A stretch of DNA of 64,000 bases from a virus, in the IMG/VR virus record IMGVR_UViG_3300035698_019240, positions 28,056 through 92,055 of that record. One strand, written 5' to 3'. The notes under the pieces were generated by a model that had not been told where the DNA came from, did not search any database, and saw only the letters and a list, made by a program, of their open reading frames with translations. Positions 25,876 through 64,000 of this stretch are shown piece by piece; position 1 is the first letter of the stretch; each line of letters begins with the position of its first letter. Position numbers and translations under genes: made by a program.

Positions 25876-25876
25876 A

Positions 25877-26080: not shown

Positions 26081-26125
26081 TTTAAACTCCTATTTATATT
26101 TTCATCAATCTCATTATCCTTTATA

Positions 26126-26944: not shown

Positions 26945-27036
26945 ATTATTTCCTTTATATTTTTATAAATAATTTTACCCGTTTTTTTACTGGATTTTTT
27001 AAAAATCCTCAAAAAAAGTAAACCTACCACTCATTA

Positions 27037-27044
27037 TATTTATA
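27037..27044 (-). promoter_or_regulatory. T4-type late promoter box before gp13-like gene
   Basis: TATAAATA on the minus strand at 27044-27037, 93 bases before the gp13-like start. It lets neck and tail genes be transcribed independently of the terminase operon, which is separated from them by the inserted endonuclease gene. Confidence 0.6.
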
Positions 27045-27089
27045 TAAAAAAATCTGAATATAAAAAAGTGTTTAAGTATTTTTAGTAAG

Positions 27090-27117
27090 TTTACTACCTG
27101 TCGTGGTAGTATATAAT
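27090..27117 (+). promoter_or_regulatory. Sigma70-type promoter for the endonuclease
   Basis: TTTACT (27090-27095), 16 bases, TATAAT (27112-27117), followed by GGAGGTGG. It points at the HNH gene starting 27209, against the surrounding late genes. The 16-base spacing differs from the 17 elsewhere. Confidence 0.65.
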
Positions 27118-27146
27118 GGAGGTGGAATAAAAATAAATGGGTGTGA

Positions 27147-27177
27147 AAGTCCAAGTTTTATCATTTTAATTGGACTT
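27147..27177 (+). promoter_or_regulatory. Leader hairpin of the endonuclease transcript
   Basis: AAGTCCAA (27147-27154) pairs with TTGGACTT (27170-27177) as a perfect 8-bp stem. Outside it GGTGG (27121 region) can pair with CCACC (27178 region), extending the fold. A nine-codon frame (ATGGGTGTGAAAGTCC...) runs through the stem. It may control HNH expression. Confidence 0.5.
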
Positions 27178-27208
27178 ACCACCACCTTACTAATATAAAG
27201 GATAATAA

Positions 27209-30204: not shown

Positions 30205-31428
30205 TTACCACTTTATTGTTACTTTTCTCTTTACCTTACTTATCTTTCTTACTTCCTTTCTTGTAAATTGTTTTGTATTATTAGAACAGTCGAAGTTCCC
30301 ACCGACAATCTTTGGTGCACCTTTCAATGTTGTAAGTTTATTATCATTACAATGAAAATTCTTACCAACATTCTCTGGTGCACCTTTCAATGTTGTAAGT
30401 TTATTATTATCACAATGAAAATCACCACCAACACTCTTTGGTGCACCTTCTAATGAAGTTAAATTATTACTATTACAATAAAAATCACTATTCATAATCT
30501 TTGGTGCATATTTCAATGATGTAAGTTTATTTTGGCCACACCTAAAAAGTCCACCTATACTTGTTGGTATTCCTTCTAATGATGTAAGTTTATTAATGCT
30601 ACAATCAAAGTATCCTCTCACATGATATTCACCAAGATCCTTCAATTCTTGTGGTATTTCTTTAAGGTTTGCATCATCAATGTTCATCTCAGCAAACACA
30701 TAAACACCATTTTTTATTTCATAGTGAAATCTCCTACCAAGTACTCTGAATGTGTCTAATATCTTTAATCCTATTTTATCCACAAAGAACTTTCCTAACT
30801 TTTCATTTTCCTTAAAGAAATCTTCCAAATCCATTGTATCATCGTTTCTTCTGTCTTGTATTTCAGTATCTATATTGTTTTTATTAATAAACAATTGATA
30901 CAACTCCTTATTAGGTTTATTCTTATTCCTTATAACATATAATTTTCCTTTTTTGTTATAACTTTTCCAATGTGTAGGACCTCTACTTTTACTGGCCGTA
31001 CACCATGATGTTATTTTTCCATAAGCACCACAAGAGCTTTCAAAGTCTTTAGGTATTTCCACAATCCATTGTGAATCTGAATATATAACCTCATTAGATT
31101 CGTTACTTGATAGTTCCGCCAATTCGTCAAAAGATTTTAACCTACTTATATCTCCTTTAAAGTTTATAAGTTTTTTTCTTAGACTATCTAAATTTTTAAT
31201 TTCCAGTTTTCCTTTTTTATACCAATTCAATATAGTATTGGAAAATTTTCCAAGTTTTTTAATCACCTTTCCTTTTATTTTTGAGGTTGGATCTGCACTT
31301 ACAATTGCCATAAAAGTATTTATAGGCATGTAGTTATAGAATTTATCATATGCTATTTCTCCTGATATTTCGGTTAGCATATATTCTTCACCGATAAGAT
31401 ATATATCTATAGTTTTTATTATATCCAA
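30205..31428 (-). CDS. WCTA-domain and leucine-rich-repeat protein
   Basis: About 407 residues. Start taken at TTG 31428 (MDIIKTIDIYLIGEEY) because AGGAG lies seven bases before it, as in the paralogue. The N-terminal domain includes SQWIVEIPKDFESSCGAYG, KITSWCTASKSRGPTHW and YQLFINKNN, a W-C-T motif domain known from other phage proteins of unknown function. The C-terminal third has six LRR-type repeats (NKLTTLKGAPKIVGGNFDC). I-G-E after the N-terminal helix is a possible protease site. Confidence 0.75.
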   Translation of the reverse strand: MDIIKTIDIYLIGEEYMLTEISGEIAYDKFYNYMPINTFMAIVSADPTSKIKGKVIKKLGKFSNTILNWYKKGKLEIKNLDSLRKKLINFKGDISRLKSFDELAELSSNESNEVIYSDSQWIVEIPKDFESSCGAYGKITSWCTASKSRGPTHWKSYNKKGKLYVIRNKNKPNKELYQLFINKNNIDTEIQDRRNDDTMDLEDFFKENEKLGKFFVDKIGLKILDTFRVLGRRFHYEIKNGVYVFAEMNIDDANLKEIPQELKDLGEYHVRGYFDCSINKLTSLEGIPTSIGGLFRCGQNKLTSLKYAPKIMNSDFYCNSNNLTSLEGAPKSVGGDFHCDNNKLTTLKGAPENVGKNFHCNDNKLTTLKGAPKIVGGNFDCSNNTKQFTRKEVRKISKVKRKVTIKW

Positions 31429-31459
31429 GTTACATCTCCTCATATTAAGTTCAAAGCAT

Positions 31460-38716: not shown

Positions 38717-39955
38717 TTATGGCAGATTACTTACTGAACATTTTTGATAATAATTTGCGGCTCCAAATATATGACTATGGATGGCATATCTACTCATCAA
38801 TCCGATTGCTGGATTGAAAGAATCTTCAAACGTAGCTCTTGAAACAAGAAGCTGAATGTAAGGTAGATAAATGATACCAGTATCATACTCACTTGGTCCC
38901 TTATAACCTACGATGAATTGGTTACTTGTTTGGAAAGTATCACGATATACTGTCATTCTTCCGTCAAGGCTACCGATTCTTGCAACGCCAGTTACAGCTG
39001 TGTTAACATCTGCATTTACTGGTGCTACTGTAAAAGCTGAAAGAGTTTCAAATGCTGCACAAACTACAGGTGAACATACAGCCCAGTTACCTGCTCCACG
39101 TCTTGTGTTAATTGCGATTTGATTTGATAATCTTATAAGCTTGTTATAAAGATTTCTGTATTTTTCAATTTCCCAACGACCATCTGCGTCAGCTGGATTA
39201 TTGAAATCCCATGTACTTGTTGTTGCAATAGTGTCAATATTATATACGAGTTCACGATCAATTTCTGCGGTGATTTCGTATGCCAATATATCCATCATTT
39301 CTTCTTCAAGATCAAGTCCGTGCATAGCCTTTAAATCTTGAGCAACTTCTAATGACCAACGACTTCTAAGTTTACGGGTTTTAGCCTCAACTTGAGCCTT
39401 TTCAACAGTCATGTTTACTTCTTTTATATGATTACCAGCTCCAACGCCGATACCCATATCAATACCAACACCAGTACCTGCGGCTGAACCGAGTGCTTCT
39501 GCGGTTGCTACTGCTGTACCTGTACCAGAAGGTACAGAACTATCATAAGTACCTGTACCAGAGTATGTGTTATCTATTGTGTTATATCCTACTTCGGTGT
39601 TTGCGGCATCTGCATAGTTACCAGATGATGCTGCATCGCCCGCTGTAAATCTAAGTGCGAATGCCAGACCAACAGGGCCGGTCATTGGCTGTACACCTAC
39701 GATTTGATGAGCAATAAGCTCAGGGAATGTTCTACGAACCATTGGTACTGCGATCTTATGGAACATTGCGTCTCCAGAATATCCAGTTGAATCCGGATCC
39801 ATAGTTCCTCCACCATAAGAACTTGATGTCTCTGTCAAATATGCATGTTGATTCTCTAACATAAGTGCAGTAGATTTTCTAACTTTATCACTGGAAATTT
39901 CTCTTCCTTCTTCAAGAACGTCTTTCCATTTTTTTACTAAATTACTTAAATCCAT
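38717..39955 (-). CDS. Major capsid protein, T4 gp23-like
   Basis: 412 residues (T4 gp23 is 521). Diagnostic strings: VPMVRRTFPELIAHQIVGVQPMTGPVGLAFALR and the later EIDRELVYNIDTIA, GNWAVCSPVVCAAFETL, VGYKGPSEYDTGIIYLPY. The N-terminal region has AYLTE before TSSS, an expected prohead-protease site that would remove about 43 residues. GGAGG gives the ribosome site. Confidence 0.95.
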   Translation of the reverse strand: MDLSNLVKKWKDVLEEGREISSDKVRKSTALMLENQHAYLTETSSSYGGGTMDPDSTGYSGDAMFHKIAVPMVRRTFPELIAHQIVGVQPMTGPVGLAFALRFTAGDAASSGNYADAANTEVGYNTIDNTYSGTGTYDSSVPSGTGTAVATAEALGSAAGTGVGIDMGIGVGAGNHIKEVNMTVEKAQVEAKTRKLRSRWSLEVAQDLKAMHGLDLEEEMMDILAYEITAEIDRELVYNIDTIATTSTWDFNNPADADGRWEIEKYRNLYNKLIRLSNQIAINTRRGAGNWAVCSPVVCAAFETLSAFTVAPVNADVNTAVTGVARIGSLDGRMTVYRDTFQTSNQFIVGYKGPSEYDTGIIYLPYIQLLVSRATFEDSFNPAIGLMSRYAIHSHIFGAANYYQKCSVSNLP

Positions 39956-41469: not shown

Positions 41470-42069
41470 CTACAAACTCTTTTCAATTTTTTCTATCACT
41501 TGCCAGATTTGTTTCTTATGGGCTTCTTTTGCATCTTCAAGAGTAAACTGTTTTTGTTCTTCTTTTTTAGCAAAACCTTTCCAACTTTTACCTTCATAAA
41601 TTCCATCAACCCATGATGGATGATTTGAAGGATCTGTAACAAGGTCCCAAGTTAAAAGATTATAATCTTCATTTACATAACCATCTTCATCAACAGTTCC
41701 AAGACCTCTACTTGATATACCCATTTTACCTTCTTTAACGAGTGTTTTTGCAATACTACCCATAGGCGTATCAAGAAGCTTTGCTTTACCATACACATCA
41801 TTGTTTTTCCATTCAAGTTGTGTAGTAAGTATAGCAATTTTATCAGGATTTACTTCTGGGTTAGGTGGATGTCCCAATTCACCCCAAAGAGATTTTCCTT
41901 TGACCTTTTCATTTACTTTTTCCACTTCTCTTTCAAGTATGGGTTTTTTGTAAACTCTATTGTTATTATTTTTGAGTTCCGCACTGCTGAAAATTCCAAC
42001 AATGTTAAGTCCTTTATTCTTAGATTCTGTTAGTTCAAAATCATAAGACATTTCAGTTATTAATAGCAT
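41470..42069 (-). CDS. Prohead core protease, T4 gp21-like
   Basis: 199 residues (T4 gp21 is 212). Serine protease of the prohead: VYKKPILEREVEKVNEKVKGKSLWGELGHPPNPEVNPDK contains the catalytic His region, and KMGISSRGLGTVDED the catalytic Ser. It cleaves after L/I-x-E; its own start contains LLITE and ELTE sites for self-maturation. It would process the capsid, scaffold and the tagged internal proteins described in this window. Confidence 0.9.
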   Translation of the reverse strand: MLLITEMSYDFELTESKNKGLNIVGIFSSAELKNNNNRVYKKPILEREVEKVNEKVKGKSLWGELGHPPNPEVNPDKIAILTTQLEWKNNDVYGKAKLLDTPMGSIAKTLVKEGKMGISSRGLGTVDEDGYVNEDYNLLTWDLVTDPSNHPSWVDGIYEGKSWKGFAKKEEQKQFTLEDAKEAHKKQIWQVIEKIEKSL

Positions 42070-42393: not shown

Positions 42394-42413
42394 TATTTAT
42401 ATTTATATTTATA
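42394..42413 (-). promoter_or_regulatory. Three overlapping late promoter boxes
   Basis: TATAAATA on the minus strand at 42401-42394, 42407-42400 and 42413-42406, overlapping at six-base steps (TATAAA repeated). They overlap the portal gene stop and lie 29-48 bases before the start of 42072-42365. Confidence 0.68.
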
Positions 42414-43971
42414 AATTCTCTACTTCTTTAAGTCCTAATTTTTCATCTTTTGCCATTCCATCTACATTTGCTTTAATTTCATCATCACTATACTTCAAAT
42501 ATTTTTTCATTAACCAAGATTTACTAAATTCACTTCTATCTGCTAACATAGTATAGTTGCTAAACCTTGATTCCATAAAATTTTGTTCCATTTGCTCTCT
42601 ATAATTTGATGGAGGATTCATTCTTAGTTTTATTTTCTTATCATTTAAACCATATTGTTCCTTGATACCTTTAAATTCTAAATGTAAAAGAAATAGTTTT
42701 GTAAATTCTTTACAGAAGTTATTTTGTTGTCTTTCAAGAAACTTAGCCCACTTTACCTCATCTCTTGTTATTTCTGCTGTTTGACTACCACCAAACATTA
42801 TATCTCCGGATCTATTTTCTTCACCTGCGGTTACTCTTGACATAGGATATTTTAAGGCTCTATACATTTTTCTTGCAAAATAATAAACATCATCTAATTC
42901 TGTAAAACCTTTAGCGTCTCCACCAACAGTATCTATCTGACTACCACGACCTTCAGCGGATTGAGGCATATAATAGTTCTCTAATAAACTCATAATCTCT
43001 GGTGAATGTGATAATCTTCCAGAAGCCGGATCATAAGTTTGTTTTTTAGTCATTTTCTGTTTAATCTTTTCAACATATTTCAGGGCTTTATCTCTTGGCA
43101 TATTACCAGTATCTATTCTAAAAACAAGTCTTTCAGGAGCCCTTACAATTCTGTAAATTACAACAGAAGTTTCTAATAATTTTAATGTATTATGAGGTAT
43201 CTTTACCTTTTCAAGATATCCTAATATTTGTTGTTTATTTTTACCATAAATACCATAATTTATAAAACCTATTTGTTCAGGATTAAATATTACAACATCT
43301 TCTCTTTGTTGAGCTTCTTCTAATGTTTTAGGTTTTGCTGGACGACTTGAGAGGTATTGGAAAAAATATGTAATTTTACCACTTATAAGATTATAAAAAT
43401 AATCCATTGTTTCAGAAGGCAATTTTTTAATACTTATGATACCTCTTTTTGGTTTTCTTACATCAATTATTCTTTCATAATATAATCTACCATCTATCAT
43501 GTAAGTTCTAAAAAAGTCCCATATCTTATCTTCAATATGTAATTTCTCATAAAATAAATCATTAAACTCATTATTAATATTTCTAACCATATTATCATTT
43601 TTCTTGAGTTCTGGATCTAGTATGTCTAATTGAAAGGTTTTACCTTCATCGTTTTCCATTGTAGATTCATTTGTAGCATCCTCTATGACATCTCCGATTT
43701 CTGTCTGTTCTGCCATTTGTCTATAGCCGTATATTCTTGCTACTTCATTTTCAAAATCTTTGTTTATATACCTATCATAAAAACTATGAAAAGATTGAAT
43801 ACCTACATTTCCAAATCCTTGGACATTATAGATGTCTTCTATACCCTCACCTTTTTGAGCCATCAAAGCTCTTTGTTTAGTAGGCGAACTATTACCCTTA
43901 TTTTCAAAAGGTTTTATAGCTTCATCTATCTTTTCTTCTTTTTTAGAAAACCAATCACTGTAAAATGCCAT
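42409..43971 (-). CDS. Portal vertex protein, T4 gp20-like
   Basis: 520 residues, the same length as T4 gp20 (524). Landmarks: ENDEGKTFQLDIL, RPYYERIIDVRKPKRGIISIKKLPSETMDYFYN-type region (RLYYERIIDVRKPKRG), IVYRIVRAPERLVFRIDTGNMPRDKALKYVEKIKQKM, GGDAKGFTELDDVYYFARKMYRALKYPMSR. It forms the dodecameric DNA gate and starts head assembly. Confidence 0.92.
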   Translation of the reverse strand: MAFYSDWFSKKEEKIDEAIKPFENKGNSSPTKQRALMAQKGEGIEDIYNVQGFGNVGIQSFHSFYDRYINKDFENEVARIYGYRQMAEQTEIGDVIEDATNESTMENDEGKTFQLDILDPELKKNDNMVRNINNEFNDLFYEKLHIEDKIWDFFRTYMIDGRLYYERIIDVRKPKRGIISIKKLPSETMDYFYNLISGKITYFFQYLSSRPAKPKTLEEAQQREDVVIFNPEQIGFINYGIYGKNKQQILGYLEKVKIPHNTLKLLETSVVIYRIVRAPERLVFRIDTGNMPRDKALKYVEKIKQKMTKKQTYDPASGRLSHSPEIMSLLENYYMPQSAEGRGSQIDTVGGDAKGFTELDDVYYFARKMYRALKYPMSRVTAGEENRSGDIMFGGSQTAEITRDEVKWAKFLERQQNNFCKEFTKLFLLHLEFKGIKEQYGLNDKKIKLRMNPPSNYREQMEQNFMESRFSNYTMLADRSEFSKSWLMKKYLKYSDDEIKANVDGMAKDEKLGLKEVENL

Positions 43972-53983: not shown

Positions 53984-53991
53984 TATAAATA
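53984..53991 (+). promoter_or_regulatory. T4-type late promoter box, rightward
   Basis: TATAAATA at 53984-53991, 42 bases before the ATG of the HAD gene at 54033, with AAAAGGAAA as ribosome site. Back to back with the leftward box, eight bases apart. Confidence 0.7.
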
Positions 53992-54032: not shown

Positions 54033-54707
54033 ATGCGACTTAAAAATTATATAAATGAATTAAGTTCAATCTACGGCAAGGGAATAACTTTTTGCGACAT
54101 CGACGAAACACTCTTTAAAACATTTGCTAAGATAGATGTTAAGAAGGATGGAAAAGTAATTCATTCGTTAAGTAATACAGAATTCAATGATTATAAACTT
54201 AAAGAGGATGAAAGTTATGATTTTGGACAGTTTAGAGATGCTGAACTTTTTGCCAAAACTTCAATACCTATTCCTAATACTATCAATAGAATTAAAAGAA
54301 TGTTTAAGAATATGGATAAAAGAGGCTCAAGAGTTATATTACTAACAGCAAGGGCAGATTTTGATAAAAAAGAAACATTCTTACAAGTATTTAGGGATGC
54401 CGGTTTACCAATAGATCAGATTTATGTTGAAAGAGCAGGTAATATGAGTACTGGAACTACAGAAGAAAGAAAAGAAAAAATTATTATGAAATATTTATCC
54501 ACAGGTAAATATAGACGGGTAAGATTAATTGATGATTTTAGAAAAAACATTACAAAATTTCTTAAAATGGAAAAGAAAATGCCTAAAAAGGTTATGGATA
54601 AGATAAAGGATATACATCATATTACAGATGAAGAAAGTATTCCGCCTCTTGAATTTTTTGGTCTTTTTGTAAAAGAAAACGGATCGTTACAAAGGATTAC
54701 AATATAA
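54033..54707 (+). CDS. HAD-family phosphatase with capsid-targeting-like N-terminus
   Basis: 224 residues. HAD motifs: FCDIDETLF (D22, D24), LLTAR (T at about 110) and VRLIDDF near residue 170, the layout of phosphatases such as the phosphatase half of polynucleotide kinase. Substrate unknown. The start MRLKNYINE then LSS carries the helix plus I-N-E seen on other late proteins, so the enzyme may be packaged and injected. Late promoter box directly upstream; overlaps the next gene by one base. Confidence 0.8.
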   Translation: MRLKNYINELSSIYGKGITFCDIDETLFKTFAKIDVKKDGKVIHSLSNTEFNDYKLKEDESYDFGQFRDAELFAKTSIPIPNTINRIKRMFKNMDKRGSRVILLTARADFDKKETFLQVFRDAGLPIDQIYVERAGNMSTGTTEERKEKIIMKYLSTGKYRRVRLIDDFRKNITKFLKMEKKMPKKVMDKIKDIHHITDEESIPPLEFFGLFVKENGSLQRITI

Positions 54708-55234
54708 TGAAATCAATAAAAACATTAGTGATAGAAGATGACCCCAATTTTTTTAAATTTGTCAAAGAATTATTAAAAAAATCAGAATATACAAAATATA
54801 TACTTTCAAGATCCAAATCACTCAGAGAAGGATCAGTTACACTTAAAAAACATAAATATGATGTGATACTATTAGATTTGACGCTTCCAAATGGTCAAGG
54901 TTTAGATGTTTTTAAGAAAATTCAAAAAGTATCCAATTACACACCTATTGTTATATTATCAGCATACGAACAACTATCGTTAGAGTCTGTAAGAGAAGGA
55001 GCACAAGATTACATAGTAAAAAATAATGTTACAACTGATGCTTTGGATCGCTCTATAAGATATTCTATAGAAAGAAAAACAATACAAGATAGAAGATTTA
55101 AATTGATAAGAAAACAAGAACAATTCCAACAAGAAGTAGGTAAAATATTAGAAGATAAAATATCTGTTTGGAAAGTAGAACGAATAGCTAAGCAAAATAA
55201 AATTAATGATATGATTGATAATATAGTAATATAA
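54707..55234 (+). CDS. Response-regulator receiver-domain protein
   Basis: 175 residues. Residues 1-120 form a CheY-like receiver: acidic pair E10-D11-D12 (VIEDDPNF), phospho-acceptor D57 (VILLDLTLPNGQG), S85 (IVILSAYEQ) and K105 (DYIVKNN). No DNA-binding domain follows, only a helical tail (RKTIQDRRFKLIRKQEQFQQEVGKILED). It could interfere with host two-component signalling or act as a phosphate sink. A receiver domain in a phage late operon is unusual. Confidence 0.88.
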   Translation: MKSIKTLVIEDDPNFFKFVKELLKKSEYTKYILSRSKSLREGSVTLKKHKYDVILLDLTLPNGQGLDVFKKIQKVSNYTPIVILSAYEQLSLESVREGAQDYIVKNNVTTDALDRSIRYSIERKTIQDRRFKLIRKQEQFQQEVGKILEDKISVWKVERIAKQNKINDMIDNIVI

Positions 55235-55243
55235 GGATAATTC

Positions 55244-55618
55244 ATGAATGATGTTATACCAGAGAACATAGTAATAAAGCTGTTTGATCAAGTTGCTGAT
55301 TCAAGTGAAAAGAATTCGGACGCTACAGAAAAATTAACAACTGTTATTGGCGATCTTAATGATACTTTGAAGGATGTAGAAAGAGATAATAAACAAAAAT
55401 TAAGTGATATCCATAAAGAGATAACTACACAAAATTTAGAAATTGGAAAAATAAAGAAAGTTTCATATGACATTAAGAGTAGAGTAACAACAATGATAGC
55501 TGTAGTCCTAATTACATTCTCATTGATGTTGATATCATATTTTTTTGTCAGTAGTGGTATTGATAAAACAGTAGATATAAAAGTGAAACATGCAATAGAA
55601 CAGGTAATTAAGAAATAA
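55244..55618 (+). CDS. Coiled-coil membrane protein next to the response regulator
   Basis: 124 residues. Coiled-coil N-terminal part (SSEKNSDATEKLTTVIGDLNDTLKDVERDNKQKLSDIHKEI, split by polar residues), one membrane helix (MIAVVLITFSLMLISYFFV) and a short basic end. The arrangement resembles signalling or holin-like accessory proteins. It may act with the receiver protein encoded ten bases upstream; this is inference. Confidence 0.65.
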   Translation: MNDVIPENIVIKLFDQVADSSEKNSDATEKLTTVIGDLNDTLKDVERDNKQKLSDIHKEITTQNLEIGKIKKVSYDIKSRVTTMIAVVLITFSLMLISYFFVSSGIDKTVDIKVKHAIEQVIKK

Positions 55619-55634
55619 GTGGAGCATAAAAACA

Positions 55635-56198
55635 ATGAGACTTAAAGAATATATAAAAGATAATAAATTTAGATACTTAGCTGAGTTGATATCACTCGGT
55701 GAAGTATTGGAACTTAATGAAACATCTGACCAAACTTTAAAAGCTTTGAGAAGTGTTGGTGATAAGTTAGGACTCAAAGTTGTAAGATCAGATAGTTTAT
55801 TTGACTATCTAAAGAGAGCTGGTAAAGCAACTGATGATTTAGTAAGACTTGCATCATTATATTTATTAACAGATATTTCTAATAGTAAATTTAAAAGTGA
55901 AATTGTCAGGGATGCTAAGAAGATATTAAAGAAGCTTGATAAAAGAGAAATTATGGCGTTTATAATGCAACTTGATAGATCAACATTAGGAATAACATCA
56001 CATTTAAGACATATAACAATGTCAGTATTTGGTGTTGAGATAACAACATATAATCATTGGTTGAAGAATGTTGATTATCTTAAAAATGAAATCAAAAACA
56101 TGAAAATTACACTAAAAGGAATGCAAGGCACAGAGGACGAGATAAAAGCTCTTAAATATTTTGAAAATTTAGTAAGAAGTTTAGAGATAGGGAAATAA
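55635..56198 (+). CDS. Hypothetical helical protein with capsid-targeting-like N-terminus
   Basis: 187 residues: MRLKEYIKDNKFRYLAE then LISLG, followed by helical segments (KATDDLVRLASLYLLTD, KILKKLDKREIMAFIMQLDRST) and NHWLKNVDYLKNEIKNMK. L-A-E is a protease-type site. GTGGAGC is the ribosome site. Function unknown. Confidence 0.68.
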   Translation: MRLKEYIKDNKFRYLAELISLGEVLELNETSDQTLKALRSVGDKLGLKVVRSDSLFDYLKRAGKATDDLVRLASLYLLTDISNSKFKSEIVRDAKKILKKLDKREIMAFIMQLDRSTLGITSHLRHITMSVFGVEITTYNHWLKNVDYLKNEIKNMKITLKGMQGTEDEIKALKYFENLVRSLEIGK

Positions 56199-56210
56199 GG
56201 AGTAAAGTAT

Positions 56211-56423
56211 ATGAGTAATATTATAAAAAAGCTTGATATGTTTATAGGTGAAGAAGGAATAGTTACAGGAGATGTAGAAGCGAATACAGCAAAAGGAAGT
56301 ATTGATGTAGTTGGCGAAGAATGTAAAAAAGGATATAAATGGTGTCCTAAAGAAAAAGCTTGTATACCTATAACAAATGAAGATACTAAAGTAGAAGAGT
56401 TGAAGAATGTTAAAAACAAATAA
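56211..56423 (+). CDS. Small tagged protein followed in frame by a further ORF
   Basis: 70 residues: MSNIIKKLDMFIGE then EGIVTGD, and a KKGYKWCPKEKACIP segment of phage type. The stop TAA at 56421-56423 is followed in the same frame by an open reading frame to 56570, so the protein could extend to about 119 residues by readthrough or have lost its end. GGAG precedes the ATG. Confidence 0.65.
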   Translation: MSNIIKKLDMFIGEEGIVTGDVEANTAKGSIDVVGEECKKGYKWCPKEKACIPITNEDTKVEELKNVKNK

Positions 56424-56438
56424 GATGCTGAAAGTATA

Positions 56439-56570
56439 ATGAAAAGAAAAGGTTTGAAATGGAATAAAAAAGAAGTATCAGATCAAGGTGGAATTTTATA
56501 CACTAACAAAGGTAAAGATATTGCCATGTGGTTCAAACTTGATTCAATACTAAGAGTATACCCCTACTAA
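56439..56570 (+). CDS. Small protein or in-frame 3' part of the gene before
   Basis: 43 residues from ATG 56439: MKRKGLKWNKKEVSDQGGILYTNKGKDIAMWFKLDSILRVYPY (written in two parts it reads KRKGLKWNKKEVSDQGG and ILYTNKG...). No ribosome site is seen before it, and the frame continues from 56211-56423 with only the TAA between. It may be expressed by readthrough or be a remnant. Confidence 0.4.
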   Translation: MKRKGLKWNKKEVSDQGGILYTNKGKDIAMWFKLDSILRVYPY

Positions 56571-56597
56571 TAAAAAATAAATTAGGATTAAAAAAAT

Positions 56598-57239
56598 ATG
56601 AGCATAAGCACAACAATAGAAGTAGGCAATGAATGTCCAATTATTCTTAAATTATACGATGAAGCAAGTGATCAATACCCACAAGCGTCTGTAATAGATA
56701 ATGAAAGCAATACATTAATTACTATAGATTTAGTTCATGAAGCAAATGGTATGTATGTACCCTCTACTTCATATGTTATGCCTGATAAAGAATTTATTAA
56801 AGTTGTGTATTTTGTATATACTGATGCTATTCATACAACAAAATCTATTGATTATTTAGACGACTACGATGTTTTTAGAAGAATTATACCTACTAATTAT
56901 AAGGCAGATGTATCAGGTATACAAACAAGTTTAGACAATCAAGAAATTAAAATAGATAAAATTCTAGGTTTAGTACATCATAATATTCATATTGATGAAC
57001 CAGTATATGATATGTATGATAATTTAATTGGAGCTCGATTAAGAATATATTCAAATCCTGATTCAGTAGGAAGTAATGCAAATGTTATAGCAGATTATTC
57101 AATAACATCTGTTGGTACTGGTGTAGGCAAGTTCTCATATTGGCAACAAAAGGAATTAGTAGAAGTTGATTATTTAGAATTTGAAAATGATAGCGGAGTA
57201 TTAATTTATGAAGATGGAGATATATTAGAATTAGGATAA
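56598..57239 (+). CDS. Structural protein before the beta-helix fibre
   Basis: 213 residues. Beta-rich N-terminal part (TIEVGNECPIILKLYDEASDQYPQASVIDNESN, MPDKEFIKVVYFVYTD), then a linker with IQTSLDNQEIKIDKILGLVHHNIHIDEPVYDMYDNLIGARLRIYSN. The H-H-N-I-H-I-D region is typical of fibre assembly segments. It precedes the large fibre gene by 15 bases and probably attaches it. Confidence 0.62.
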   Translation: MSISTTIEVGNECPIILKLYDEASDQYPQASVIDNESNTLITIDLVHEANGMYVPSTSYVMPDKEFIKVVYFVYTDAIHTTKSIDYLDDYDVFRRIIPTNYKADVSGIQTSLDNQEIKIDKILGLVHHNIHIDEPVYDMYDNLIGARLRIYSNPDSVGSNANVIADYSITSVGTGVGKFSYWQQKELVEVDYLEFENDSGVLIYEDGDILELG

Positions 57240-57254
57240 TAAAAGGAAATAATT

Positions 57255-60200
57255 ATGGCAGATAAAAAGTTAAGTGAATTAACACAACATCACACAACAT
57301 TAGACACAGATTCAAGATTGTATACTGTATCTGACCCAACAGGGACCCCTACATATGGGTACACAGAATATCAAGATATAAGAGACCAAATAGATGGTTA
57401 TATTGGAGCTAATACGGTTCCATTAGACAGATGTGTATATGTTGCAAAAAATGGAATTGATGCTACCGCTAATGGTTCTGTAGGAAAACCATTTCTTACA
57501 ATACAAGTAGGTATTGATTATGCTTATACTAAATGGTATGGAAATATATCTTCTGCCAATCCTGTGGCGGTATTAATATGTCCTGGAACTTATACAGAAA
57601 ATATAGACCTAACAGGAAAACCATATATAGATTTATTATCAATTACAACCCGTGATTCTACAATTATTACAACCGCTTCAGGCACAACCTTAACATTAGG
57701 AAATGAAAAAACTAATGTTGAAAAGATAACGATAGAATCAACAGGTGGTAAAATATTAGAAGTTCCAAGTACTGGTATTGGAAAAGAATATACATTTAAG
57801 AATTGTAAATTTGATGCGATTGTTAGTAATACATATACAGAAGGTATTGAAATTAATAATGGAATTGTTCAATTTACAGGTTGTCTTATGGAGTATACCC
57901 AAACAGGAACTGGTGGCGGAACTCATAAATTAATGAATATAATAAACGCTCAGGCATTAATTTTTCTCAATAATGATATTTTAATGAATGTAGTAGATCC
58001 AGATGATGATGTAATTGGAATATATGAAGCAAATATAATAGTTCCTCTTGTAGAATCTACTTCAAGAATTGTAATATATAGAAATGGTGTAGTAACTGGT
58101 GAAACAATAGGATATTATGCGAACGGAACATCGGTCGGTAAACATCTATCAGCAGGACTTATCATACTTTTAAATAATGGTTCTGGTGGTGACGCATCTG
58201 CTGTAAAAACAGCAGGAAATGGTTGTACTATAATTCAGCAGTCAAATAAGTTTGATGTTTCAGGATTTACTAATAATTGGGCGGCAAATGTGGCATTAGG
58301 AGATACTATTAATTCTAACTTTGAAACTATATATGCCGATCAACACTATACAGGTGCTGGAACTTATAATTATGTAAATAGCCCAAAAGAAGGTGATTTA
58401 CAAATAAGTGGTTCCTATTTGAATATGTATGATCAGGCATTAACAGTTGGTGCAAGAGGTGGTGATTATACTGTTATTCAAGATGCTATTGATAGTATTA
58501 CTACCGCTACAATAGATAAAAAACATGTAATACTTATTTATCCGGGAACTTATACTGAAAATGTAGTAATGAAGCCATACATAGATTTAAAAGCGGTTTC
58601 AACTAGATCCGCCACAGTAATCACATCTCCTTCAGGAACAACTTTAACTTTATCAGATCAGACTACTCTTATTGATGATATAAAGATAATAACAACTGGT
58701 GGAAAGATTTTAGAAGTGCCCGCAGTTGCCAATACAATAAATTATAAATTTTCACGTAGTACACTTCACGCAATAATTAATAATTCTTTTACTGATGCTA
58801 TAGAAATTAAGGGTGGTACTGTTCAGTTTTCTAACTCTTTCATGCATTATGATCAAACAGGAACAGGCGGAGGAACTCATAGATTAATAAACATTACCGG
58901 TGCAGGATTAATTACTTTACTTACTACCGATATGAGAATGGATGTAGTAAGTACAACTGATGATGTAGTTGGTGTAAAAGAAGCAAATGAAGTTATTACT
59001 ACTATATTTGATTCTTCAAGACTTGTGGTAAGTAGAACAGGAATTGTAACAGGAGAAACAATAGGATATTATGCAAATGGTACGTCCGCTGATAAGTTAT
59101 TGAGTGCATGTTTCTTACAACTTTTAAATGAAGGTTCAGGCGGTAACGCTTCTATTGTAAAAACAGCGGGAAATGGTTGTGTTGTAACCAATCAGTCTAA
59201 TACTGTTAAGGTTTTAAATTTTACTAATAATTGGTCGTCAAATGTAGGAGTAGGAGATACTGTTTATTCTAATTTTGATACTATAACTGCTGCTCAAAGA
59301 TATACTGGTTCAGGAACTTTTAATGCTATACATGCCCACAGTAGTGGCGACCTTCATGTAGAAAGAGATATTGTATTGAAAAGAAATATGGAAATTGGTG
59401 GAACCTTAGCACTTGCAACAGGCACTACAGTAAATGAAATTACAACTTCTGTTACTTCTTCTGCTGCATCGGATAATAAATTACCTACTGAAAAAGCCTT
59501 AACAGATCATACTGATGGTTTAGCAAGTTTATATGTAAAGTTAGACGGTTCAACTCCATTTACTGGAACTGTTGGTGGTATAACTCCTACACTTAGCGAT
59601 CACTTATCAACTAAAGGGTATGTGGATGCTGTAGCTGCCGGTGGCGGTACAAATGATTTAGGTCCGTTTGTAACTAAAGATGCTGTAGCTCCTTCAGGTG
59701 GAGAAGCTGTTGGTGAAAAATGGATAGTTGCTGGATTAGGAGGCGCATGGTCTGGTTTTGATATAGATGATATTGCAGAAGTTGATAGCATTACCCCAAC
59801 TGTTTGGAGTAATGTAACTCCATCTGCAGGAAATCATGGTTGGGTTACTGATGAAGGAATAGATTATACATTTAATGGTTCTGATTGGGTAGTAACCGGG
59901 ACATTGATTGATCATACAGCTATACAACATATTGGAACAAATTCTCATGCAGTAATTGATACACATATTGCTAATGTTACAACTAATCCTCATGTTGTAA
60001 CTAAAACAAATGTAAGTTTAGGAAATGTAACCGATGATGCCCAGTTAAAAAGATCTGCAAATGATTTTAATGGGTTTGGTGAAGTTGCGATTCTCGCAGA
60101 TGAAGATAGGTATTTAATAGAGTATTATGATAGTGGTTCTTATACTAAGAAATATATAGTAGCATCCAATATGTATGATAGAAAAGTTAAGGTTTCTGCT

Positions 60201-60761
60201 ACTGATACAACTCAAGATTATTTAATGAGTAAGTTAACTGGTTCTGATAGTACAATAACTCTTACACAAGTTGGTGCCGGTGGAGATGAAGACCTTCAGA
60301 TTGGATATGGCACAGAACTCACAACATTAACAGACGGAAGTAATGCAGATGCCTTACATACTCATCTTAGTGGTTGGCATGGTTCTGATACAAGAATTAA
60401 AATTGCCCCAGCTGAGTTTTTACCAAATGATAGTAAGGAATGGAAACAAGTAATAGAAAATGATGGTGGATCAGTTACAGATAGTGAGGAAAAATTAACA
60501 GAATTTATTACTATTCCCATTTATATTCCAACAGGATATAAAGCAACTGCATATATGGTTTATGCAAGTGCTGCCATTACAGTTGAGATTTTTGAAAATG
60601 ACATTACAAATAATAGTAATACAAATAAGGTTAGCGGAAATGCTAACACTGAAATTAATATGACAGATGTAACATCTAGTTCAACTAATTACTTATCAAT
60701 TGTTGTAGTTGATGCTGGAGCAGATATTTATGGTGCATATGTAACTATAGAGGAAGTATAA
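57255..60761 (+). CDS. Large tail fibre/spike with duplicated beta-helix domain
   Basis: 1168 residues. N-terminal LSELTQHHTTLDTDSRLYTV adaptor, two copies of a right-handed beta-helix-like domain (about residues 55-380 and 395-700; shared landmarks PGTYTEN, GGKILEVP, QTGTGGGTH, GETIGYYANGTS, TAGNGC), a coiled-coil/fibre part (TEKALTDHTDGLASLYVKL, STKGYVDAVAAGG), then a C-terminal beta domain ending VTIEEV. Such proteins bind or degrade host surface glycans. The largest gene in the window. Confidence 0.85.
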   Translation: MADKKLSELTQHHTTLDTDSRLYTVSDPTGTPTYGYTEYQDIRDQIDGYIGANTVPLDRCVYVAKNGIDATANGSVGKPFLTIQVGIDYAYTKWYGNISSANPVAVLICPGTYTENIDLTGKPYIDLLSITTRDSTIITTASGTTLTLGNEKTNVEKITIESTGGKILEVPSTGIGKEYTFKNCKFDAIVSNTYTEGIEINNGIVQFTGCLMEYTQTGTGGGTHKLMNIINAQALIFLNNDILMNVVDPDDDVIGIYEANIIVPLVESTSRIVIYRNGVVTGETIGYYANGTSVGKHLSAGLIILLNNGSGGDASAVKTAGNGCTIIQQSNKFDVSGFTNNWAANVALGDTINSNFETIYADQHYTGAGTYNYVNSPKEGDLQISGSYLNMYDQALTVGARGGDYTVIQDAIDSITTATIDKKHVILIYPGTYTENVVMKPYIDLKAVSTRSATVITSPSGTTLTLSDQTTLIDDIKIITTGGKILEVPAVANTINYKFSRSTLHAIINNSFTDAIEIKGGTVQFSNSFMHYDQTGTGGGTHRLINITGAGLITLLTTDMRMDVVSTTDDVVGVKEANEVITTIFDSSRLVVSRTGIVTGETIGYYANGTSADKLLSACFLQLLNEGSGGNASIVKTAGNGCVVTNQSNTVKVLNFTNNWSSNVGVGDTVYSNFDTITAAQRYTGSGTFNAIHAHSSGDLHVERDIVLKRNMEIGGTLALATGTTVNEITTSVTSSAASDNKLPTEKALTDHTDGLASLYVKLDGSTPFTGTVGGITPTLSDHLSTKGYVDAVAAGGGTNDLGPFVTKDAVAPSGGEAVGEKWIVAGLGGAWSGFDIDDIAEVDSITPTVWSNVTPSAGNHGWVTDEGIDYTFNGSDWVVTGTLIDHTAIQHIGTNSHAVIDTHIANVTTNPHVVTKTNVSLGNVTDDAQLKRSANDFNGFGEVAILADEDRYLIEYYDSGSYTKKYIVASNMYDRKVKVSATDTTQDYLMSKLTGSDSTITLTQVGAGGDEDLQIGYGTELTTLTDGSNADALHTHLSGWHGSDTRIKIAPAEFLPNDSKEWKQVIENDGGSVTDSEEKLTEFITIPIYIPTGYKATAYMVYASAAITVEIFENDITNNSNTNKVSGNANTEINMTDVTSSSTNYLSIVVVDAGADIYGAYVTIEEV

Positions 60762-60762
60762 A

Positions 60763-61119
60763 ATGAAAAGTCCTTGTTGTAGATTAATAAATCTATTAGA
60801 TAAAAATAAAATAGAATTAATGAAAAAAGGTGTAGAATCTGATGGTATATTTAGAACCAATTCACAAAGAAGAATAAAAGATGGAACTAATTTTGGATGG
60901 AATATGAAAAATGAAGTGGAAGGATATCCATGTGAAAAGTTGGGTGCTGATGGTTGTAGTATCTATGAATATCGTCCCTTATGCTGTCGTAATTTTCCAA
61001 ACACACCAAAATTATTAATTAAACTTCCAACTTGTACAATAAGTTTTAATGATAAAGGTGAAAAAATAGGAACATGTAATGGTTGTAATAGTGAAACAAT
61101 AGGAGAGTTAATTGAATGA
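60763..61119 (+). CDS. YkgJ-family-like Cys-cluster protein
   Basis: 118 residues. CCRLI near the start, CEKLGADGCSIYEYRPLCCRNFP (residues about 57-79) and CNGCN near the end. The GCxIYxxRPxxCRxF phrase is the signature of YkgJ-type zinc/iron-chelating proteins. Role unknown. Begins one base after the fibre stop, so it may help fibre production or metal loading. Confidence 0.72.
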   Translation: MKSPCCRLINLLDKNKIELMKKGVESDGIFRTNSQRRIKDGTNFGWNMKNEVEGYPCEKLGADGCSIYEYRPLCCRNFPNTPKLLIKLPTCTISFNDKGEKIGTCNGCNSETIGELIE

Positions 61120-61292
61120 TAAGCATAGCAACACTCGGTAAATTCGGAGGACCAAATAAAAAAGATGGAGGTGGTGGAGGCACTACTTACATTGAAAAAA
61201 GAAAACCATTTGTTCGTGTATCTGGAATAAAATATGATAAATATAAACAGGAAAAAATAAATATAAATGTAACATCTGTTCAAGAGGAGTAA
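61116..61292 (+). CDS. Small structural-type protein
   Basis: 58 residues: ISIATLGKFGGPNKKDGGGGGTTYIEKRKPFVRVSG and YDKYKQEKININ. A five-glycine linker suggests a flexible connector. ATGA overlap with the gene before and AGAGGAG for the gene after. No family recognised. Confidence 0.6.
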   Translation: MISIATLGKFGGPNKKDGGGGGTTYIEKRKPFVRVSGIKYDKYKQEKININVTSVQEE

Positions 61293-61294
61293 AT

Positions 61295-61705
61295 ATGATT
61301 GACTTAAAAGTAAATGAAAAAAAGAAATTTAATTTTCAATTAGAAATAAGTGGTGTACAGGCACAAGATTTGAAAGGTTCAATGAAATTAATTATTGAAG
61401 GAGTAGAATATGGATTTCCTGTTAGTTTAATTGATGGGTCTGTTGTTGTTGAAGTGCCCGCAATTGAAAAAATTACTAAAGCTACATTAACTGAAGGACA
61501 ATCATTACCTGTAACTCTTGAAATTATTGCTAATGATACATTTATTATACCATGGAAAGATTCATTTACTGTTAGAAAACCAGTTAAAGTTGAGGCAAAA
61601 ATAGTTGATATAAAAGATGTCCTTGATGAAATAGATATAAAACCAAAAATTACAATAACAAATATTAAAGAAGAAAAGGTTGAAGAAAAGAAAAAAGTGT
61701 ATTAG
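61295..61705 (+). CDS. Beta-sandwich structural protein, possibly frameshift-fused to a KOW domain
   Basis: 136 residues: KKFNFQLEISGVQAQDLKGSMKLIIEGVEYGFPVSL, IEKITKATLTEGQSLPVTLEIIANDTFIIPWKDSFTV, then a charged end EEKVEEKKKVY. The fold is capsid-decoration-like. Its end runs through AAG AAA AAA GTG; in the -1 frame the sequence continues as GIGDNVKMLRGNYKG, the start of a KOW module. Confidence 0.65.
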   Translation: MIDLKVNEKKKFNFQLEISGVQAQDLKGSMKLIIEGVEYGFPVSLIDGSVVVEVPAIEKITKATLTEGQSLPVTLEIIANDTFIIPWKDSFTVRKPVKVEAKIVDIKDVLDEIDIKPKITITNIKEEKVEEKKKVY

Positions 61706-61725
61706 GTATTGGCGATAATGTTAAA

Positions 61726-61959
61726 ATGCTGAGAGGAAATTATAAAGGTAAAATTGGAAAAGTTATTGATTTTAGTCTTGAAGATGATCAAGTAGATGTG
61801 AAATTTTCAGATGGTAAAACAAGGCATCCAGGATTTGATGATATAAAAATAGTAGAGGGAAAGAAGGCTGATGAAGATTGTGGAAAAGATCACGATAAGA
61901 AAAAGAAAGATAAGAAAAAACCAACTAAAATGAGTGAAAAGGTATTTGGTAATTTATAA
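61726..61959 (+). CDS. KOW-motif small protein
   Basis: 77 residues as annotated from ATG 61726: LRGNYKGKIGKVIDFSLEDDQVDVKFSDGKTRHPGFDDIKIV, a KOW-type barrel, and a charged end DHDKKKKDKKKPTK. The usual first strand (GDNVKM) lies in frame just upstream of this ATG but has no start codon, so the native start may be a -1 frameshift from the gene before, or a non-standard start. GCTGAGAGG is a weak ribosome site. Confidence 0.65.
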   Translation: MLRGNYKGKIGKVIDFSLEDDQVDVKFSDGKTRHPGFDDIKIVEGKKADEDCGKDHDKKKKDKKKPTKMSEKVFGNL

Positions 61960-61978
61960 TAAAAGGAAAGGAAATATA

Positions 61979-63403
61979 ATGAATATACTAGAAAAGTTAG
62001 AATTAATAAACGAGCAAGATAAGATAGTCAATGAAGCTGGTATTAGAAATATGAAAACCTTAGCAAAAGAATATAAAAAAGCTGAGATATATTTTCATAT
62101 TGATCTTGATGGAGTAATGTCTGCTGTAGGTATGAAAAAGTACCTTGAAAATTATGGTATTAAAACTGTTGACGCTCATCCAATACAGTATGGTGATATG
62201 GAATATAGAGCTCCAAAACCACAAAAAGAGACATTGGCTGTTATGGTTGACTTTGCACATGGTAAACCAACAATGAAAATACATACAGATCATCATGATG
62301 CTCAAGTTGGTGTTAGTAAAGGAACAAGTACTGCGTTCAGTCATGTTCCATCAAACGCTGCATATATTTCACAAGTATTAGCAGCTGGTGATTTATTTCC
62401 AACTAAGGATGCACATATGATTAATACTGTGGATTCAGCCGATTTTGCCGCACAAGGTTTAGAACCTGATGATATTATGAGAGCTGTTTTTGGAGTAAAT
62501 AAGAAACTCTCTCCAGGTAAGAATCATCAAATGATGGCACTCGCCTCTAATAAACTCTTGTTAGCTTATAAAAATAAACCAGATTTCTTAAAACAAATAG
62601 TATTGAAAGCTAAACCTTCATTGATATCTCTATATAATGAAGTTGTTAAGTTAGCTAAGAAAGCTGGATATAAAACACCTGCTGAGATTGAAGGTGGAAC
62701 TTTTGAATATGCCGATGCTCAATCAGAAAAAGGAAAGGGAACAGGTAAACCTTCGGATGTTAAAAATTTAAAGAATGGCCAATCAGTAATGGTAGGAACT
62801 ACTTTGTTACAATATGGTGGTGGTTCAATGATAAAGGGTTTTGATAGATATACACCTTTCAAAAATAACCCTGATGCGCATTTCTTTTCAATAGTATGGC
62901 CAATGGGTCTTGTACAGTTGTCAAAAAATCCTTTTATGAAGGCTAAGAATCCTTACCATTTAGGCGACTTAGTAATGAAAAAAGTAATGCCTAAATTTAA
63001 GAGTAAATTGAATAAAGATGTAACACTTGATACTATAAAATGGATGCTTGAAAGGGATAAGAATTTTAAACCTGGTAAGTCATTAGGTTTTACATTTGAT
63101 GACCTTGTAGCATTATTTGGTAAACAAATAAAGAACTTATCTCCAAAAGGTACATATAGAGATATGATTAAAGATATTACTAATAAGCCTCACAAGTTTT
63201 TATCTTTTAAACAAAAAAATATAATAAAGAAAGTAACTATATCATTATGGGACTTAATAATGGCTCAAAGTGGAGGACATCCCGACATCACAAATGTTAG
63301 TGGTTTCAACTTCTACGGTAAAGGATATGTTGATATAATGAAAGAGGTACAAGCAGAGATTGCTGATGTAATGAAAGATAAGAAGTTAAAGGGAGATGAA
63401 TAA
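61979..63403 (+). CDS. DHH-family phosphoesterase with capsid-targeting-like N-terminus
   Basis: 474 residues from MNILEKLELINE (AAGGAAAGGAAA before it); a longer frame start is ignored. DHH motifs: D42-x-D44 (HIDLDGVMSAVG), D91 (VDFAHG), D104-H-H (HTDHHDAQ), D152 (NTVDSADF). Such enzymes cleave oligoribonucleotides, pAp or cyclic di-nucleotides with Mn2+. I-N-E then Q, and V-N-E then A at residues 17-20, are protease-type sites. If packaged, it would reach the cell with the DNA. Substrate unknown. Confidence 0.85.
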   Translation: MNILEKLELINEQDKIVNEAGIRNMKTLAKEYKKAEIYFHIDLDGVMSAVGMKKYLENYGIKTVDAHPIQYGDMEYRAPKPQKETLAVMVDFAHGKPTMKIHTDHHDAQVGVSKGTSTAFSHVPSNAAYISQVLAAGDLFPTKDAHMINTVDSADFAAQGLEPDDIMRAVFGVNKKLSPGKNHQMMALASNKLLLAYKNKPDFLKQIVLKAKPSLISLYNEVVKLAKKAGYKTPAEIEGGTFEYADAQSEKGKGTGKPSDVKNLKNGQSVMVGTTLLQYGGGSMIKGFDRYTPFKNNPDAHFFSIVWPMGLVQLSKNPFMKAKNPYHLGDLVMKKVMPKFKSKLNKDVTLDTIKWMLERDKNFKPGKSLGFTFDDLVALFGKQIKNLSPKGTYRDMIKDITNKPHKFLSFKQKNIIKKVTISLWDLIMAQSGGHPDITNVSGFNFYGKGYVDIMKEVQAEIADVMKDKKLKGDE

Positions 63404-63645
63404 TGGATACTATAAGTAAAATTAATAAGTATATAAATGAAGATAAAACATCAAGTGCTGTATTTGACGCTAAAAACGCATTGAACTTGGTTATGTCTTC
63501 TGTTCCAATGAATCGTGCGGATAAAAAAATACTGGGATATGCATATAGCCTTTTAACGACGATGAGTAAGGGACGATATGTAGCTGAAAAAATACCGGAA
63601 AGATTCCTGAAAAAAACCGGAAAAATAAAGGACAGTAAAGAATAA
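63403..63645 (+). CDS. Small protein with capsid-targeting-like N-terminus
   Basis: 80 residues: MDTISKINKYINE then DKTSSAVFDAKNALNLVMSSVPMNRADKKILGYAYSLLTTM and a basic end. Its first 13 codons are nearly identical to those of 63645 onward (ATGGATACTATAAGTAAAA), so the start segment has been copied between different bodies. Function unknown. Confidence 0.7.
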   Translation: MDTISKINKYINEDKTSSAVFDAKNALNLVMSSVPMNRADKKILGYAYSLLTTMSKGRYVAEKIPERFLKKTGKIKDSKE

Positions 63646-64000
63646 TGGACACTATAAGTAAAATTAATAATTATTTAAATGAAGAAAAATCAGTAACTAA
63701 TGATATAATGGATTTTTTTGTTGAAAATCCATATCCTAATGATGATTTAGTTCATGGTCTTGCAGAAAAATTAGGCATGGATCCTGATGATTTTGAAGCC
63801 GAAATATATTCAATTTTGAGTTCATTCTTATCTTTTGGAAAATTTAATGATGAAAAGAAAAAGGAAGAAGATATTGATACGGAAGAATTGAAAGAAGGTA
63901 TCAAAATAGAAATGGAGCATACAGAAAATCCTGTTATATCTAAAAGAATAGCTTTGGATCATTTAACAGAAATTCCTGATTATTATACTCGTTTGATTAA
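63645..64000 (+). CDS. DUF5661-like protein with capsid-targeting-like N-terminus, partial
   Basis: At least 118 residues, running off the right edge. MDTISKINNYLNE then EKSVTND, a low-complexity middle with GLAEKLGMDPDDFEAEIY, and GIKIEMEHTENPVISKRIALDHLTEIPDYYTRLI. The E-H-T-x-N-P...A-L-D-H-L-x-E-I-P-D-Y-Y-T-R-L end is the signature I associate with DUF5661, common in large phages. Function unknown. Confidence 0.72.
   Translation, partial: MDTISKINNYLNEEKSVTNDIMDFFVENPYPNDDLVHGLAEKLGMDPDDFEAEIYSILSSFLSFGKFNDEKKKEEDIDTEELKEGIKIEMEHTENPVISKRIALDHLTEIPDYYTRLI

Follow-up and report, generated by a model that had tools for sequence, protein, structure and literature searches.

Does an uncultured phage load ready-made phosphoesterases into its head and hand them to the next cell together with its DNA? 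The question is raised by a stretch of 64,000 nucleotides (hereafter the window), corresponding to bases 28056-92055 of a 92,055-bp uncultured IMG/VR virus record, in which a HAD phosphatase and a DHH-DHHA1-like phosphodiesterase (hereafter HAD and DHH) both open with a short, capsid-targeting-like N-terminus. The original prediction, made from the letters of the window, had proposed that the two enzymes may be injected with the DNA and could either repair nicked ends or destroy nucleotide messengers used by host defences. Our analysis confirms the underlying observation and partly supports this interpretation. The features concerned are as follows.

54033..54707, + strand: HAD phosphatase gene, 224 residues; catalytic D22, D24, T105, R107, K147, D167 and D168
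54033..54059, + strand: HAD capsid-targeting leader, MRLKNYINE, with the cut by the prohead protease predicted after E9
61979..63403, + strand: DHH-DHHA1-like phosphodiesterase gene, 474 residues; H40, D42, D44, D91, D104-H105-H106, D152 and SGGH at 431-434
61979..62035, + strand: DHH leader, residues 1-19; predicted cut E19/A20, alternative E12/Q13 (a slash marks a predicted cut throughout)

In our proposal, HAD and DHH would be proteins inside the head of an uncultured T4-type myovirus. A short N-terminal capsid-targeting sequence (CTS) of its own would carry each of them into the prohead core, and an S77 prohead protease would trim the leaders after [LIV]-x-E, i.e., after E9 in HAD and after E19 in DHH. 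The mature enzymes would remain in the head, enter the next cell with the DNA and immediately perform metal-dependent phosphoester hydrolysis on nucleotide or oligonucleotide substrates; HAD would be a Pnkp/AphA-like phosphomonoesterase, and DHH either a DHH-DHHA1 phosphodiesterase or a short exonuclease. Their most likely use would be to lower host nucleotide signals, or related oligonucleotides or nucleotide 3'-phosphates, before phage genes are expressed. Taken as a whole, this is the explanation towards which we lean. The sequences themselves show the leaders, the sites, the protease, the intact active sites, their conservation and the gene islands, whereas packaging, cleavage, injection, substrates and purpose are inferred.

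Leaders and cleavage sites of the two enzymes

Relatives were collected by profile scans of viral contigs. For each family at least 599 stretches matched the pattern, and these contained at least 474 HAD and at least 576 DHH relatives; the 80 best per family were kept. From the 113 DHH and 117 HAD domain rows obtained with hidden Markov models (HMMs), 95 and 87 proteins, respectively, were retained, of which 55 and 35 remained at a 90% identity cut-off; together with the window proteins, the leader sets comprise 56 DHH and 36 HAD sequences. Leader counts refer to homologues with a complete N-terminus and an HMM start no later than position 6 (DHH) or 16 (HAD).

In all 56 non-redundant DHH proteins, window included, E stands at -1 and [LIV] at -3 (L in 35, I in 19, V in two), a count in which the anchor used for finding the site contains the E, yet no kept protein failed at the anchor or at the start. 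G occupies +2 in 56/56, within a conserved [STGA]-G; position -2 and all upstream positions vary, and the leader length ranges from 7 to 22 residues (median 8). The window protein itself begins with MNILEKLELINEQDKIVNE/AGIRN. Since the family-conserved site is E19/A20, its mature form would start at residue 20 and not at residue 21 as first suggested; the other proposed start, residue 13, corresponds to an upstream INE/Q13 site that is possible, yet not conserved, and residue 10 for HAD agrees with the predicted cut after E9. Note that the best DHH start is the ATG at 61979, preceded by the ribosome-binding site GGAAAGGAAAT and fitting the family N-terminus, and that the GTG at 61934, which opens the longest open reading frame, was rejected because it overlaps the previous gene. 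Among the more distant relatives, the DHH proteins of 634- and 642-kb uncultured phages start with MISKYNQFINE/EVG and MLRKYGQFINE/EVG, and a remote one from a 735-kb phage reads FALNE/EAS at a similar place.

The N-terminus of HAD is MRLKNYINE/LSSIYGKGITFCDIDET (also read as MRLKNYINE/LSS), and the site is present in 32 of 36 proteins, including that of the window. F or L is found at -7 in 29/31 and Y or F at -4 in 29/32, which is the spacing (-7/-4/-3/-1) of T4 IPIII; in one row (L030) the site had been taken at the wrong motif, the likely site being YVNE, and the start of L105 is a chosen ATG. In DHH, position -4 is mostly L or I (40/56), so that IPIII-like targeting residues at -7 and -4 occur in HAD only. 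As described for T4 in PMC9026906, cleavage by gp21 follows L/I-X-E, the ten N-terminal residues of IPIII are enough to bring it into the head, residues 4 and 7 serve targeting and residues 8 and 10 processing, and a CTS is able to deliver foreign enzymes; in the T4 record, IPII and IPIII both read MKTYQEFIAE/A. The leaders studied here resemble those of T4 IPI-IPIII and Alt in their length of about 10 residues, hydrophobic -7, aromatic -4, I/L at -3 and E at -1, and the genome likewise has an S77 protease and islands of CTS genes. They differ in their cargo, two enzymes (HAD and DHH) instead of small internal proteins, and in the DHH leader, which reaches 22 residues and counts only 7 in other lineages (MKKLIKE/SG).

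Such a motif is short, L, I, K and E are abundant in these proteomes, and the site is missing from four HAD proteins, so the leaders might be ordinary N-termini of cytoplasmic enzymes that fit by chance. The strict pattern ^M.{2,13}[YF][LIVM].E is met by 14 of the 154 called contig genes, where internal windows of these proteins would lead one to expect 2.4 and shuffled N-termini 2.6; four of the 14 look by eye like chance fits. Conservation across relatives is, at the sequence level, the stronger leader evidence. The site is kept at leader lengths anywhere between 7 and 22 residues, unrelated neighbours share such leaders at 8.6-fold the level of internal windows (see below), and the site is absent from the only clearly cellular DHH relative found, that of a Myxococcales metagenome-assembled genome (MAG; L187/L190). 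The alignment of this protein with the phage profile starts at residue 29, and its N-terminus MSTTLKSHSLRARTRALLIAILLAFVSSSALA/AP, which reads by eye as a Sec-type signal peptide, replaces leader and site; the conserved site is thus not part of the catalytic fold. As a natural control, this relative is suggestive and comes from one MAG. Altogether, we regard a chance fit as highly improbable. A cellular source of the DHH family was also considered and rejected: the genome-contig scan gave two loci, one of them phage-like, and in the phylum of the second, 2 of 377 genomes matched, one being the genome itself and the other reaching E 9e-4.

The contig encodes, judging from its genes, a T4-type myovirus, with a head and tail set that includes an S77 prohead protease, a major head protein, a portal, a large terminase and a tail sheath. 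Three of these bear on head processing and its gene context.

41470..42069, - strand: S77 prohead protease (gp21 type), PF03420 E 1.2e-27 and phrog_207 E 5.3e-56
38717..39955, - strand: major head protein, phrog_138 E 7e-94
42409..43971, - strand: portal protein (head-gene context), phrog_213 E 5.7e-98

The protease is presumed to be the processing enzyme of the leaders, and the major head protein has a site-like AYLTE/TSS near residue 42, where it may be cleaved as well. Leaders, sites and protease together argue for packaging and trimming of HAD and DHH, which we consider very probable, and the capsid-targeting-like starts of the original prediction are strongly supported by the site conservation (DHH 56/56, HAD 32/36) and by the protease on the same contig. 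The claim that the enzymes lie directly behind such a start stands insofar as each has its own leader, but several genes separate HAD from DHH.

Since many relatives from environmental phages keep the leader, injection of both enzymes along with the DNA is probable, delivery into the host resting on the precedent of T4 (PMC9026906, PMC12373910). According to PMC12373910, T4 Ip1-3 are injected restriction inhibitors, and internal proteins leave the head with the DNA and are able to counter host defence. Conversely, packaged enzymes could serve the assembly of the head or virion, e.g., by clearing nucleotides or cut fragments in the prohead, and never act in the next host. An internal protein can help assembly, as loss of T4 IPIII is described to give more polyheads (PMC9026906). 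However, T4 internal proteins with such a leader are injected and act in the host in the accounts of both sources, and the catalytic residues of HAD and DHH, which a scaffold would not need, are invariant; an assembly role appears improbable.

Folds and candidate substrates

The intact catalytic motifs reported earlier hold in the aligned members of both families. In HAD (DIDET, LLTAR, K147 and LIDDF), all seven catalytic positions are invariant in the 36 aligned proteins, the rows being hand-assembled from the leader list, and in DHH (HIDLDG, VDFAHG, DHH, D152 and SGGH), none of the 11 catalytic and DHHA1 positions examined varies among the 41 aligned proteins, which were chosen from the 56.

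The HAD model has a mean predicted local distance difference test score (pLDDT) of 88.6, with residues 1-11 below 50. Its nearest fold by VIA-align is the T4 Pnkp 3'-phosphatase (5uj0; Z 13.2, root-mean-square deviation (rmsd) 2.7, 133 residues aligned), followed by Pnkp1 (Z 12.6) and then AphA (Z ~11); with Foldseek, AphA comes first at E 1.4e-3, and no match falls below 0.001. At the profile level, phrog_415, named polynucleotide kinase, is matched by all 36 HAD proteins (best 1.7e-11), HAD_SAK RNA-repair families match weakly, and the class B acid phosphatases of PF03767 are matched by 30 of 36 members at E <=0.01 (best 5.7e-8), the window HAD scoring 22.6 bits, under the Pfam gathering score of 27. 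The HAD core is shared with the phosphatase domain of T4 Pnkp (PseT) and with AphA, and the arrangement of DxDxT, [ST]xR, K and DD is as in PseT. In contrast to PseT, the window HAD stands alone without a kinase domain and has an insertion between motifs I and II; it is no kinase-phosphatase fusion, the 224-residue protein being HAD only.

The DHH model (mean pLDDT 86.3) is weak in the leader, with residues 11-20 below 50, and has the DHH-DHHA1 fold. VIA-align places it nearest to PggH (Z 16.2, rmsd 4.9, 274 aligned, over residues 34-469) and to PAP phosphatase (Z 15.7, rmsd 4.0, 284 aligned), then to RecJ (Z 12.8; RecJ chains ~12-13) and others such as NrN (Z 11.3, rmsd 4.0, 233 aligned), and the best Foldseek match is 6mtz (E 1.9e-5). 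PF01368 was matched at E <=0.01 in 41/41 proteins scanned individually (best 8.6e-6), with the window DHH at 20.5 bits, under the Pfam cut-off of 28.1. No NCBIfam family, the curated RecJ model included, matched the window DHH at E <=0.01, and the L142 homologue reached 17.1 bits with the RecJ model, whose cut-off is 396.9. The motif set HxDxDG, VD, DHH, D and SGGH is shared with PggH, PAP phosphatase, NrnA, GdpP, RecJ and NrN. Unlike these enzymes, the phage DHH forms a sequence family of its own with no sequence-level PDB relative; it is ~150 residues longer than PggH and has a phage-specific N-terminal extension with the cleavage site. NrN is described as a DHH enzyme degrading SAM-AMP, with PggH and GdpP also among its nearest folds (PMC10600005). 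Nonetheless, a fold match alone, that to NrN included, assigns no substrate to HAD or DHH; a nucleotide or nucleic-acid substrate in general is likely.

The folds (T4 Pnkp for HAD; pGpG and PAP phosphodiesterases and RecJ for DHH) suit end repair and signal destruction alike. The two enzymes could instead form an injected end-healing kit, in which HAD removes 3'-phosphates (perhaps 2',3'-cyclic ones) from nicked phage DNA or cut tRNA and a RecJ-like DHH trims or clears short fragments for repair or recycling. The best HAD folds, i.e., the 3'-phosphatase of T4 Pnkp and the phosphatase domain of Pnkp1/Rnl/Hen1, point in this direction, as do the phrog_415 and HAD_SAK matches, the adjacent DD of HAD motif IV as in PseT, the RecJ chains at Z ~12-13 and the cellular DHH relative, which is apparently exported and suits a general nuclease better than a signal-specific enzyme. 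Against it, no kinase or ligase partner was identified beside HAD and DHH, and DHH fits dinucleotide and PAP phosphodiesterases (Z 16.2 and 15.7) better than RecJ (12.8), a fold gap that gives no substrate by itself. We thus see end healing as rather unlikely and slightly prefer counter-signalling or oligonucleotide turnover, with anti-signalling as the main role being a tentative proposal.

The functional idea is not new, since a role against nucleotide signals was suggested earlier for jumbo-phage DHH phosphodiesterases, and one in RNA repair for HAD phosphatases (PMC7824862). The DHH studied here resembles these phage-borne phosphodiesterases in kind and in the function suggested; the difference is that, in the part of that report available to us, DHH occurs in a small number of phages and no capsid-targeting leader is mentioned. 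Our literature search, mostly of titles and abstract beginnings, found no HAD or DHH phosphoesterases with such a leader, and within that literature the apparent capsid targeting of both families as a conserved trait would be new. Delivery from the head before phage gene expression would be shared with T4 Ip1-3 and with Tad1, which phiKZ is described to inject against CBASS (cyclic-oligonucleotide-based antiphage signalling) and Thoeris (PMC12373910, PMC13282480), but these proteins bind enzymes or sponge signals, whereas HAD and DHH would act by catalysis. As to the link with CBASS suggested in the original prediction, none was found: HAD, DHH, two homologues and the cellular relative had no match at E <=0.01 in PADLOC-DB 2.0.0, which covers defence, not counter-defence.

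Gene islands, neighbours and distribution

HAD and DHH occur together at 14 loci on ten distinct contigs, 2.4-8 kb apart, with DHH always on the strand of a HAD copy that precedes it. By record, DHH is present in 13 of 20 searched, HAD in 15 of 26 and both in eight, including the window's own. An S77 protease match occurs in 8 of 26 records, the window's own and all three above 200 kb among them, and the second model for the protease (phrog_207) matched 1 of 17, again the window's own, most records being fragments. In the window, both enzymes lie on the + strand in a gene run that opens next to divergent tail-fibre-like genes and stops close to the end of the contig. HAD and DHH are separated by a receiver-domain gene, a membrane protein, further CTS genes and two genes resembling those of tail fibres. 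The tagged and adjoining genes are listed here.

54707..55234, + strand: response-regulator receiver domain gene, PF00072 E 3.3e-18; its start overlaps the HAD stop
55635..56198, + strand: gene whose start, MRLKEYIKD..., resembles a leader and has D at -1; homologues in L014, L029, L105 and L112 between HAD and DHH
56211..56423, + strand: small CTS gene, MSNIIKKLDMFIGE/E; relative in L010
63403..63645, + strand: small CTS gene behind DHH, MDTISKINKYINE/D
63645..63998, + strand: second CTS gene behind DHH, MDTISKINNYLNE/E, open at the contig end; relatives in L002, L014 and L112
46866..47507, - strand: CTS gene, MRLEEYLNE/N; homologues adjoin HAD on the opposite strand in L004, L010, L014, L028, L083 and L112
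46492..46791, - strand: CTS gene, MTNIIEKIDTYLTE/T
25178-25414, 25424-25633 and 25648-25875, - strand: three tandem CTS genes, MITEKIDEY[LI]NE/

Such islands are not particular to the window: the strict pattern is found in 45 of 241 other genes of 14 window-like loci (8.6-fold over internal windows) and in 33 of 382 genes of other HAD loci (5.1-fold). A single T4-type leader pattern for all relatives was rejected, as it fails in the other DHH loci, whose leaders are of a different type, e.g., MKKLIKE/SG and MKKVIRLTES; a looser pattern, chosen afterwards, is met there by 47 of 338 genes (3.9-fold).

Several of our results weigh against the proposed explanation. The strict pattern occurs in 11 of 539 genes of the other DHH loci (0.8-fold, i.e., no enrichment), four of 36 HAD proteins (L006, L066, L085 and L094) have no site, and the window DHH has V in place of L/I at -3. 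Neither S77 nor phrog_207 was matched in the 189-kb record holding both enzymes or in the 163-kb DHH record. Searches by tblastn with two queries per family found no cultured-phage relative of HAD and none of DHH, for which only four uncultured huge-phage records were returned. No PDB sequence relatives of either enzyme were found, the PDB profile hits being weak and to unrelated folds, and a direct sequence link between HAD and T4 PseT was rejected because the profile alignment covers the DxDxT motif alone. The apparent export of the cellular DHH relative belongs here too. Lastly, a T4-type late-promoter-like box, TATAAATA, at 53984..53991 on the + strand, 49 nt upstream of HAD, is a slight indication at best: it was seen 8 times on the + strand of the window against 6.9 expected, hence not over-represented. 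Among relatives, where locus density predicts 1.0 case, the box precedes 9 of 35 HAD genes, an excess that becomes a weak difference when 9/33 HAD genes are compared with 41/352 other genes (p = 0.025). With no enrichment in this AT-rich window and that p value, the late promoter was dropped as strong evidence.

Directly behind HAD, relatives have either a receiver-domain gene (L028, 5153-5533) or a PAS-domain gene (L014, 2777-3979; L112, 5626-6834). Together with the receiver gene overlapping the HAD stop in the window, this arrangement might mean that HAD is a switch acting on the phosphorylated signalling proteins encoded right behind it. Yet many loci, L002, L010, L004 and L105 among them, carry HAD without a receiver or PAS neighbour, and the HAD fold is closest to nucleotide and end phosphatases, so that we give such a switch very little credence.

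Other CTS-tagged enzymes accompany HAD and DHH. RimK-type ATP-grasp ligases with a C-terminal Zn-protease/RloA2-like domain are encoded at L014:8473-9900 (E 1.4e-43) and L112:10569-11981 (E 1.9e-42), and by analogy with T4 Alt they are possibly injected protein-modifying enzymes. Tagged proteins near HAD or DHH further include one of the Zeta-toxin family (L004, E 1.5e-6) and weakly AAA_16-like ones (L010 and L028). On the window's own contig, a carbon-nitrogen hydrolase starting MKFKNYINE/TEA (L024:17866-18858, - strand; PF00795 E 7.6e-19) is a further candidate for an injected enzyme. A broader, more doubtful reading would be that uncultured T4-type phages, jumbo and huge ones included, possess a modular arsenal of head-loaded enzymes, packed, trimmed and injected by means of a 7-22-residue leader, with HAD-DHH as a catalytic core against host nucleotide signalling and with partners that vary by phage (CTS-tagged RimK-type ligases, carbon-nitrogen hydrolase, Zeta-like kinase and AAA proteins). 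This arsenal would be a catalytic counterpart of the injected Tad1 of phiKZ, active before any phage gene is read. If the proposed delivery of HAD and DHH is correct, ready-made catalysts would allow phages to put nucleotide-based immunity out of action, or to heal nucleic-acid ends, as soon as infection starts, while newly made counter-defence proteins are still absent, and the leader would offer a simple sequence rule to predict injected proteins in environmental phages that have not been grown.

Minor observations on the homologues and the window

At L112 (4185-5621), two HAD genes are arranged head to head; both have a CTS leader as well as a TATAAATA box. The DHH homologues of L014 (~6130) and L012 (~6077) carry inserts of 11 and 6 nt, respectively, which interrupt the catalytic HxDLDG motif at an identical position and contain a stop codon; the inserts are flanked by a repeated CTT codon, and the remaining frame is largely intact. 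A mini-bypass or an endonuclease-repair scar is possible, each insert being known from one contig, so that a second assembly does not confirm it. In L012 and L013, in-frame stops occur where relatives have tryptophan, which may reflect TGA read as Trp, or errors. The DHH homologue of the uncultured 634-kb phage (L193) has an extra mid-protein segment resembling, by eye, a winged-helix domain.

Elsewhere in the window, the protein encoded at 30205-31443 has the CTS-like start IIKTIDIYLIGE/E and a weak internalin-type similarity (NF033187, E 2.5e-7, far under the cut-off). In addition, 21 short C-terminal tags like IDVDELFEDIEI were counted, 13 of them in the window (109-13393), 8 in L025 (contig 25410-27909) and none in L024. 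They form the C-terminus of many small proteins from the early region, several of which have an SH3/KOW-like repeat, and our guess is that this common tail could dock to a clamp, a polymerase or a single-stranded-DNA-binding protein.

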